Below, piece by piece: positions 13,394-45,675 of a DNA stretch of 51,817 nucleotides. The translations under genes were made by a program, and so were the position numbers. Numbering within the stretch: position 1 is the first letter of the stretch; each line of letters opens with the position of its first letter. Origin of the DNA: Holophagaceae bacterium (GTDB lineage: Bacteria > Acidobacteriota > Holophagae > Holophagales > Holophagaceae); contig PLUC01000040.1 of assembly GCA_003165415.1 (NCBI GenBank), positions 1 through 51,817 of the forward strand. Direction: 5' to 3'. Under the pieces are notes generated by a model. The model worked only from the letters and a program-made list of their open reading frames with translations, searched no databases and was not told the origin of the DNA.

Positions 13394-14203
13394 ATGTGCC
13401 TGATCCTGGTCGCCTGGCTATCCCATCCGCAATTCCCGTTGGTGGTGGCCGCGAACCGGGACGAATTCTACGCCCGGCCCAGCGCCTTGGCCGGCCCCTG
13501 GCCGGAGGATCCCCGGGTGCTGGGAGGCCTGGACCTGGAAGCCGGCGGCACCTGGCTGGGGGTGCGGGAGGACGGACGCTTCGCCGCCGTGACCAACGTC
13601 CGCGAGCCGGGCGTCCCCAAAAATCAGCCTGTCTCGCGTATCCACAAAGTGGATACCGAGAAAAATCAGCCTGTCTCGCGTATCCACAGAGTGGATACCG
13701 AGAGGGGCGCCCGTTCCCGCGGGCTGCTGACGAAGGATTTCCTGCTGGGCCGGCAGTCGCCGGGCGAATGCGCGGCGGCCATCGATGGCGGCCGGTATTC
13801 CGGCTTCAACCTGCTGCTGGCGGATGGGCAGGCCCTCTGGTACTGCTCCAACCGCGACGGCGGCGCCCGGCGACTGGCTCCCGGCGTCTACGGCCTGTCC
13901 AACCACTTGCTGGACACCCCATGGCCCAAGCTGGTCACCGCCAAAGCCAGGTTCGCCGCAGCCCTGGACGGCCTGCCGGCCTTCGATCCGGTCTTCAGCA
14001 TCCTGGCCGACCCGGAGATCGTCCCGGACCATGACCTGCCGAAGTCCGGGGTGCCGCTGGCATGGGAGCGCCTGCTGTCCGCCATCTTCGTCCAATCAGA
14101 GGATTACGGCACCCGTGCCTCCACCGTGCTGACCCGGGACCGCCAGGGAGCGATCCGGCTGGAGGAGCGCCGCTTCGGCCCGGGAGGCGCGCCGATGGCA
14201 TAG
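13394..14203 (+). CDS. NRDE family (TANGO2-like) protein with an in-frame repeat insertion
   Basis: A 269-residue member of the NRDE/TANGO2 family, named for the motif visible here as ANRDEFYARP. It starts MCLILVAW, and the Cys after Met is typical of this Ntn-hydrolase-like fold. Other family blocks are GGLDLEAGGTWLGV, AAVTNVREP, GARSRG, and YGLSNHLLDTPWPK. AGGAG lies six bases before the ATG. The exact activity of the family is unsettled. TANGO2 homologues have been tied to heme handling and lipid metabolism. The oddity is residues 76-103, two near-identical copies of KNQPVSRIHKVDTE placed between EPGVP and RGARSRG. Removing them restores the usual family spacing in frame. Confidence 0.88.
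   Translation: MCLILVAWLSHPQFPLVVAANRDEFYARPSALAGPWPEDPRVLGGLDLEAGGTWLGVREDGRFAAVTNVREPGVPKNQPVSRIHKVDTEKNQPVSRIHRVDTERGARSRGLLTKDFLLGRQSPGECAAAIDGGRYSGFNLLLADGQALWYCSNRDGGARRLAPGVYGLSNHLLDTPWPKLVTAKARFAAALDGLPAFDPVFSILADPEIVPDHDLPKSGVPLAWERLLSAIFVQSEDYGTRASTVLTRDRQGAIRLEERRFGPGGAPMA
13619..13702 (+). repeat. Tandem 42-bp palindromic insert inside the NRDE gene
   Basis: Two head-to-tail copies (13619-13660 and 13661-13702) differ at one base. Each starts AAAAATCAGCCTGTCTCGC and contains an inverted repeat, CTCGCGTATCCAC/GTGGATACCGAG, with a three-base loop and one bulged base. The insertion begins exactly on a codon boundary and adds 14 codons per copy. The unit has no stop codon in five of its six frames. 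No other copy is seen in this window. Confidence 0.9.
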
Positions 14204-45247: not shown

Positions 45248-45675
45248 CGGGTTTCCCAGCGGCTCAGGGCCAGACGCAGCTGGCCTTCGATTTCATGGAA
45301 TGTGAAAGGACAGCCCTTTGGGGCGCCCCGGGCAGGGCGGACCCACACCACATATCGTAGTTCGTTCGCGCACGGTTGTTCGCGCAGGATCTTGAGAAAG
45401 GCCATGCGCACCCGGCGCCGGAAGCGGTTGCGCTGGACGGCCCGTCCCTGTTTCCGGGACGCGTTCACCAGCAGCATCGGCCCTGGGCCTTCGGACCTGG
45501 GTTCTGGGCCTTCGGACCTAGGCTCTGGGCCTTCGGACCTAGGCTCTGGGCCTTCGGCCCGGCCCCAGACCCTGATGTCCAAAGGCTGCTCCCGTCCCAG
45601 CAGGGGACGGGGAGCAACGCTGGGCACAGCGTGATCCTGGCGTCGCACGGTCCGGTAGCGCCCGGCTACCCGCAT
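45244..45675 (-). CDS. rnpA: Ribonuclease P protein component, with tandem peptide repeats
   Basis: Up to 143 residues. The core is clear: LLVNASRKQGRAVQRNRFRRRVRMAF, holding the RNR signature of RNase P protein, followed by ELRYVVWVRPAR and the closing helix. It helps RNase P RNA bind precursor tRNA. Before the core sit three copies of the heptapeptide GPEPRSE plus a partial copy, encoded by a 21-bp tandem repeat. The N-terminal segment lacks the usual F-x-x-V/Y strand. Two starts are possible: ATG 45675, six bases after the rpmH stop, with no SD, and TTG 45582, with GGGAG six bases upstream and a family-like length of 112. Confidence 0.85.
   Translation of the reverse strand: MRVAGRYRTVRRQDHAVPSVAPRPLLGREQPLDIRVWGRAEGPEPRSEGPEPRSEGPEPRSEGPGPMLLVNASRKQGRAVQRNRFRRRVRMAFLKILREQPCANELRYVVWVRPARGAPKGCPFTFHEIEGQLRLALSRWETR
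45485..45557. repeat. 21-bp tandem repeat within rnpA
   Basis: Three units (45485-45505, 45506-45526, 45527-45547) and a ten-base partial fourth, each GGGCCTTCGGACCTAGGCTC plus one T or close to it. Units two and three are identical, and unit one differs at two bases. Being a multiple of three, copy-number change keeps the reading frame. Confidence 0.92.

Follow-up and report, generated by a model that had tools for sequence, protein, structure and literature searches.

A Holophagaceae-wide family of 42-bp palindromic elements found in frame within protein-coding genes

The NRDE/TANGO2-family gene of the window (that is, of the entire 51,817-nucleotide stretch of Holophagaceae bacterium DNA analyzed here) contains a segment that, judging from the corresponding sites of its homologs, is an insertion of 84 bp made up of two cassettes (Table 1). 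This segment very probably consists of two tandem copies of a mobile, non-autonomous stem-loop, for which the name "Holophagaceae palindromic element" is coined here. The element constitutes a Holophagaceae-wide dispersed family with hosts in soil and sediment. In form A, it is a 42-bp cassette that consists of a 12-nt leader and a 30-nt hairpin and is inserted after an A (CCA^RG), and in form B, the hairpin lies between direct repeats.

Table 1. Coordinates of the host gene and of the tandem element copies in the window
Feature	Position	Strand	Remarks
NRDE/TANGO2-family host gene	13394..14203	+	269 aa, ATG start; ORF and family searches
Element copy 1, 42 bp, codon register, KNQPVSRIHKVDTE	13619..13660	+	Alternatively 13620-13661, with 13619 as the host A
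Element copy 2, 42 bp, KNQPVSRIHRVDTE	13661..13702	+	Equally 13662-13703
12-nt leader of copy 1	13620..13631	+	Family consensus about RATTTCAGTTCG; profile from 90 non-redundant duplication-free sites
30-nt hairpin of copy 1	13632..13661	+	13 pairs, one unpaired C, 3-nt loop; family pattern, 0 mismatches
12-nt leader of copy 2	13662..13673	+	Family pattern and leader profile
30-nt hairpin of copy 2	13674..13703	+	Family pattern, 0 mismatches
Target 5' half, CCCA	13616..13619	+	CCA^GG split by the insertion; empty site in same-genus L204

The product of the host gene matches the Pfam entry PF05742 in a profile search (E value, 1.1e-61) and, in phmmer, the PDB chains 8sv7 and 9bwa (E values of about 2e-29), which carry the name "Transport and Golgi organization protein 2 homolog." The tandem 42-bp palindromic copies that the preliminary description placed inside this gene are indeed there; however, instead of being one base apart, they abut directly. 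An A is present at both junctions (positions 13619 and 13703), which allows the register to be shifted by one base. The two copies are identical at 41 of 42 positions, and both are in frame in the NRDE open reading frame (ORF). The hairpin of each unit, which has 13 pairs with an unpaired C and a 3-nt loop, is slightly larger than the 12-base imperfect inverted repeat originally ascribed to it. Within the window, the inner palindrome has two matches with up to 3 mismatches, both of them in the NRDE gene, versus a mean of 0.07 and a maximum of 1 in the shuffled sequences, and there are no Rfam matches above the gathering scores. If translated, each unit of the insert would read KNQPVSRIH(K/R)VDTE. 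In the AlphaFold model of the protein (mean pLDDT of 83), residues 72 to 105 are the sole segment with pLDDT values below 50, so the insert is probably a flexible loop joining a strand to a helix and is probably tolerated as such. The window also contains a 21-bp tandem repeat, about GGTTCTGGGCCTTCGGACCTA, at positions 45479 to 45560.

Homologs of the NRDE protein were found in 10 other genomes (38 genomes were searched, including the source genome itself), and the segment is missing from all of them. Three same-genus homologs are shorter at this point by exactly 28 residues, the number of residues that the insertion had been said to add in frame, and in the seven more distantly related ones, the gap at the element site amounts to 27 or 28 residues. 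The filled site in the window reads GGC GTC CCC, then the 84 bp, then AGG GGC GCC, whereas the empty site in the same genus (L204, genome G001) reads GGC GCC CCC directly followed by AGG GGC GCC. The closest of these homologs come from the same genus and share 70 to 78% identity with the window protein.

The search for the 42-mer elsewhere in the genome and in its relatives, which the preliminary description proposed, recovered many more copies. That description had named the lack of any other copy in the genome and the presence of the segment in distant orthologs as outcomes contrary to its reading, and neither occurred. In the source assembly, a BLAST-type search revealed 9 further places (the weakest with an E value of 0.19), and a search with the hairpin pattern, allowing 3 mismatches at most, yielded 13 hairpins, including the two copies in the window, versus none for the reversed control pattern. 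A scan of 60 genomes, 37 from the family (the source genome included) and 23 from outside it, produced 233 hairpin matches versus 8 control matches in the former set and 14 matches, in 10 genomes, versus 10 control matches in the latter; all 11 listed of these 14 non-family matches carry 3 mismatches. At least one match is present in 28 of the 36 relatives within the family, several of which have a single match, no better than the control level, and the largest number of hairpins among the 60 genomes scanned (35) is found in G032. In that genome, two loci (L299 and L300) show pairs of hairpins in inverted orientation, spaced by 223 bp and enclosing a conserved segment, an arrangement that resembles REPINs. 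In a scan with one genome per species, the hairpin was detected in at least 118 stretches; among the matches listed, 116 of the 118 stretches have titles with Holophagaceae, Geothrix, or Acidobacteria bacterium, and none of the 118 has a Rickettsiales title. The species-wide matches listed include named Geothrix strains, so the group has cultured members. Hairpins were also seen, among the matches listed, in metagenomic bins labeled Rhizobiales (L141) and Proteobacteria (L169), which perhaps contain misbinned Holophagaceae contigs. Genomes assembled into a single contig carry the hairpin family, too. Viral contigs had no exact matches to the element, and no gain or loss of a copy was observed among strains of the same species; the element may still be mobile at present.

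Folding of the family members yields a stem of 13 pairs with one unpaired base, which is nearly always C or T, and a 3-nt loop. Covariation was analyzed in 147 distinct hairpins that were selected by the pattern alone, with positions 11 to 21 left free and no pairing filter (rows L023 to L029 and L053 to L082 were left out of this set). The pair 12/20 is formed in 94.6% of these hairpins (shuffle maximum, 61.9%) and the pair 13/19 in 98.0% (shuffle maximum, 60.5%), and both swap between G-C and C-G; the pairs 11/21 and 14/18 vary little and are slightly above their shuffles. Similar figures were obtained in an earlier count in which the hairpins had been prefiltered for at least 11 of the 13 pairs. 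The loop has the form purine-N-A in 111 of the 147 hairpins, and GNA loops make very stable DNA hairpins. The predicted folding energies are nearly equal for both strands, so that folding does not tell which strand matters.

The properties of form A were derived from 234 distinct hairpins, of which 131 were duplication-free and passed the filters, leaving 90 after removal of redundancy. An A is found at position -13 in 73% of these 90 hairpins and in 91% of the 67 hairpins with a leader-like sequence, defined as one whose last 11 leader bases resemble ATNTCAGTTCG with no more than 5 differences, a selection that does not include position -13. On the 3' side, the hairpin is followed mostly by a purine and then by G. 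Together, the A at -13 and the purine and G 3' of the hairpin delimit a unit of 12 + 30 = 42 bases inserted at about CCA^RG, with no target duplication beyond one A. The form A leaders end in ..GTTCG and the form B leaders in ..GAGG. Derivation of form A from form B by loss of one repeat was rejected, given that the in-frame copies are exact 42-bp inserts. Form A often lies within a dispersed repeat, ACCACGAAGACACGAAG / CACCAAGACACCAAG, such as at L033, L085, L116, L138, L129, and L106.

Form A copies within genes are scarce; they have been accepted in six genes, all on one strand and in one frame: those encoding NRDE, CarA, the L145 protein, OppD, an SNF2 protein, and an FmdB-like protein (L004, named from its letters). 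In all six, the insert splits an AAG or AGG codon behind its first base. Exact 14-codon inserts have been demonstrated in three of them, namely NRDE (where the insert is doubled), carA, and the L145 gene. The carA gene is longer by 42 bp than the four same-genus homologs that span the site (a fifth one, in G005, does not span it), and the L145 protein, from a Geothrix metagenome-assembled genome, has 14 residues more than L344 and L349; the remaining five of its seven homologs deviate by 1 to 3 residues within a stretch rich in proline. OppD and the SNF2 protein also have the element peptide in the same frame; OppD was compared with a paralog and distant homologs, and the C terminus of the SNF2 protein is not alignable in the relatives, so that no clean empty site of the same gene could be shown for either. 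In the fmdB-like gene, the TAG in the leader ends the protein early. Scanning of all 234 hairpins for in-gene copies (173 in an earlier pass) produced 15 in-frame candidates. A hairpin at position 1200 of L271 (genome G033, minus strand) has SVSRNGAAGTEK in a long ORF in the same frame and is a plausible candidate for a seventh in-gene copy. Another six candidates were rejected as spurious or as ORFs at gene edges, a judgment based on base composition rather than homology: L033, L103, L248, and L257 have a different frame or strand, and the coding signal of L233 and L253 is weak. L025, with 3 mismatches and of another class, was taken as a chance match and left out of the in-gene and covariation counts, and L005, at the 5' end of accC, was not counted because of an uncertain start codon.

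As noted in the preliminary description and confirmed by eye, five of the six frames of the unit are free of stop codons; the sixth has TGA. With a length of 42 bp equal to 14 codons and a single frame closed by a stop, the element can sit inside genes and would be translated there. The common frame of the six genes has to be viewed against the distribution of the target: among 753 CCA^RG sites in the window genes, 175 are in sense frame 1 and 345 are in antisense frame 2, where the element would read TGA (determined by hand). Sense frame 1 thus accounts for 175 of the 408 usable sites, and the probability of finding six of six genes in it is about 0.006, not 2e-5 (calculated by hand). Stop avoidance and codon usage account for much of the uniform frame but not clearly for all of it.

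In form B, represented by 70 of the 225 scored hairpins in 19 site clusters, the left copy of the repeat starts 73 to 78 bp upstream of the hairpin and the right copy starts 0 to 2 bp after it. Shuffling of the right flanks gave two hits, none at 68 to 79 bp and both in the range of 115 to 148 bp. The left copy is preceded by an A in all 70 hairpins and all 19 clusters; this A may belong to the duplication, as it is the same as the last base of the hairpin. The repeat then continues with N (A in 12 of 19 clusters), a purine (19 of 19), A (16 of 19), and, at position 5, G (17 of 19). Many of the repeats match over the coding part only, and their full length would follow from the constant distance between the hairpin and the repeat. 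The length of the repeat varies to some extent, as in 18 more of the 225 hairpins, the best offsets are 115 to 148 bp (plus one at 25 bp). Several of these were found repeatedly at the same two genes, a biotin-domain gene and a permease-like gene, both named from the translated letters. The biotin-domain-like gene end, ATGCAGAACGAG.., carries the hairpin and a repeat of 127 to 140 bp at L243, L270, L185, L118, L298, L046, L110, and L117. Tandem arrays of about 103 to 107 bp occur as well.

The form B sites that could be read from translations, which are part of the 19 clusters, are located at gene starts or ends: the end of rpsU and the starts of polA and uppS. A hairpin with a doubled start of polA is found in G008 (L352) and G018 (L350), whereas the other 9 of the 11 genomes have a single start in the 260 nt inspected upstream. 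Of the two copies in G008, the upstream one is similar to the region where the gene begins in relatives that have no hairpin, and the downstream one carries a new leader and different codons. At the 3' end of rpsU (named from its translation), the hairpin and the duplicated gene end are seen in four genomes (L021, L035, L231, and L052), with repeat offsets of 73 or 115 bp; on the sequences at hand, this site may be either a hotspot or an old shared insertion.

These observations suggest a tentative scheme. The hairpin would move as single-stranded DNA, and its 3' end would be joined 3' of a target A. Joining of the 5' leader at once would produce form A, and copying of the target strand first, for ∼75 nt (less often 115 to 148 nt), would leave a direct repeat flanking the hairpin, that is, form B. 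Form B events would survive where the repeat spans a gene end and one gene copy is kept whole. In the NRDE gene, form A would have entered at CCC A^GG, followed by a doubling for which slippage or unequal exchange between copies would be the simplest route. The 3' junction after A that both forms share suggests a single joining reaction; the leaders of the two forms differ, so two mechanisms are also possible. Taken alone, the proposed joining mechanism is rather doubtful. The same applies to the broader idea of a new insertion chemistry, in which a stem-loop would be joined 3' of an A in a purine-rich target by an enzyme family not yet recognized as a transposase, and to its corollary that the partner strand would be either closed at once, giving the codon-neutral 42 bp, or extended by about seven or twelve helical turns; both would have to be regarded as speculative. 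If true, both outcomes would leave genes working, with the target duplication restoring a gene end in the second.

Several other explanations of the hairpins and their spread deserve consideration. One of them, polymerase template switching at the hairpin, would generate form B as a replication error, with form A spreading rarely and no dedicated enzyme needed. Indeed, hairpins obstruct replication forks, tandem arrays of about 103 to 107 bp are present, and no enzyme has been found: when ORFs were called naively in the 1.5 kb around the hairpins (536 in total) and clustered, inspection by eye of the 40 largest clusters revealed no recurring mobility gene, and no insertion sequence family stood out. 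However, both the preferred target of form B (A before the left copy, A at position 3, and G at position 5) and the fixed 12-nt leader of form A point to site recognition, which makes this explanation unlikely. Movement of the hairpin as a repetitive extragenic palindrome (REP) by a Y1 (HUH) tyrosine transposase, in the manner of REPINs and RAYTs, appears less likely still. The short, bulged, dispersed hairpin, the lack of a long duplication in form A, and the insertion after a preferred base are all features of single-strand transposition, and the source genome has three Y1_Tnp matches. Nevertheless, among the 25 family genomes searched, 12 have at least 3 hairpins, and in 9 of these 12 there is no Y1_Tnp match, the exceptions being G000, G010, and G015; some of those 9 are drafts, but they include the single-contig genomes G008 (11 hairpins) and G013 (3 hairpins). 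Conversely, G004 has five Y1 matches yet one hairpin, and the repeats of form B are not expected from the Y1 mechanism. Copying of a hairpin RNA into DNA at a nick is also improbable, perhaps marginally more so. This route would give long target duplications, and the long duplications of a preferred length seen here resemble those of target-primed reverse transcription. However, a search for RVT_1 in these 12 hairpin-rich genomes gave no match in 9 of them, including G008, and 7 of the 12 have neither RVT_1 nor Y1_Tnp. The same-genus genomes G002 and G004 have 7 and 13 RVT_1 matches, respectively, many of them with identical scores. Resident Y1/RAYT proteins and reverse transcriptases are thus unlikely to mobilize the element; a dedicated enzyme, if any, would be a different one or may have been lost.

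The other two alternatives concern the nature of the segment itself. A repeat module selected at the protein level for the peptide VSRIPEGDTE, rather than a DNA element, would fit the common strand and frame of the six in-gene copies. This fit is weakened by the target bias and the antisense stop, which bring the probability to about 0.006 instead of 2e-5; in addition, the remaining form A copies lie outside recognizable genes, and the stem pairs covary, so this reading is very improbable. An assembly artifact or contamination might be suspected in a draft genome of 273 contigs with 7.4% contamination, but the closest homologs come from the same genus and the single-contig genomes carry the family, which leaves this explanation the least probable of those considered here. 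The copy number of two in the NRDE gene could be wrong.

Palindromes inside genes are, as such, already known. The Rickettsia palindromic elements (RPEs) were reportedly the subject of the work of Ogata et al. in 2000 and 2002. Wolbachia palindromic elements, the double-hairpin elements of Allomyces, and the GC clusters of yeast mitochondria are likewise small mobile palindromes, some of them in coding sequences; they belong to other hosts and can be likened to the Holophagaceae element by description. RPEs are in-frame palindromes of 105 to 146 or about 150 bp in Rickettsia genes (PMC10969869, PMC2229807, and PMC3733652), and their target duplication and enzyme are listed there as unsettled (table in PMC2229807 and PMC3733652). 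RPEs share with the Holophagaceae element a palindromic structure, dispersal, and in-frame location inside unrelated protein genes but are longer and occur in Rickettsia, whereas the Holophagaceae element is 42 bp long, has a resolved A^RG target, and has a repeat form of mostly 73 to 78 bp. The properties expected of an RPE-like element were found in the 13 palindromes of the source genome, the in-frame inserts missing from homologs (in NRDE, carA, and the L145 protein), and the shared orientation and frame of all six accepted genes, although the fmdB-like copy supplies a stop. The likeness to the selfish in-frame palindromes of Rickettsia that was originally suggested for the NRDE segment is borne out by the filled and empty sites, the dispersal over unrelated genes and intergenic positions, and the in-frame insertion in several genes. 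On the best reading, the element would work like RPEs and be an apparently independent counterpart of them, likened by kind and from descriptions rather than by sequence.

PMC3733652 assigns RPE-4 and RPE-6, as well as the neisserial dRS3, to the CGTC-tagged REPs, which it describes as having no associated transposase, intragenic members in several species, stems of 8 to 9 bp, loops of 4 to 5 nt, a terminal CGTC (or TGTC or CCTC), and mostly a CCA tail. The Holophagaceae hairpin resembles them in being a short stem-loop with AT pairs near the stem base that is found in genes and lacks an associated transposase; it differs in its 13 pairs with a bulge, its 3-nt loop, and the absence of the CCA tail. 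Many form A leaders run GTTCG into TCTCG, which creates CGTC across the foot of the stem; form B is without CGTC. The GTAG-tagged REPs and REPINs with their RAYTs (PMC3733652; compare PMC3116915 and PMC2817692) are small dispersed hairpins as well, but the Holophagaceae leaders end in GTTCG or GAGG with no GTAG tag, and the hairpin-rich genomes mostly (9 of 12) have no Y1 transposase match of the kind that this system entails. With regard to the features of classical MITEs, namely, IS-like terminal inverted repeats and a short target duplication of fixed length, form A has no duplication beyond one A, form B has a repeat of mostly 73 to 78 bp, and no IS family was prominent next to the copies.

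No report of this hairpin family was found in the literature searched, which comprised titles and the beginnings of abstracts and covered few subscription papers. To the extent of that search, the family, its host group, the exact 42-bp insertions with a resolved target, and the duplicating form all appear to be new. The addition of segments to proteins by selfish DNA, through palindromes located in coding sequences, has been discussed before and is known mainly from Rickettsia. Here, filled sites can be compared exactly with their empty counterparts in a group with cultured members, and the element has a preferred target, a length that keeps the codon register, and a second form that duplicates the target. 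The question of how such palindromes insert thus becomes directly testable, and the Holophagaceae element provides a lead toward a mobility enzyme that is not yet recognized.
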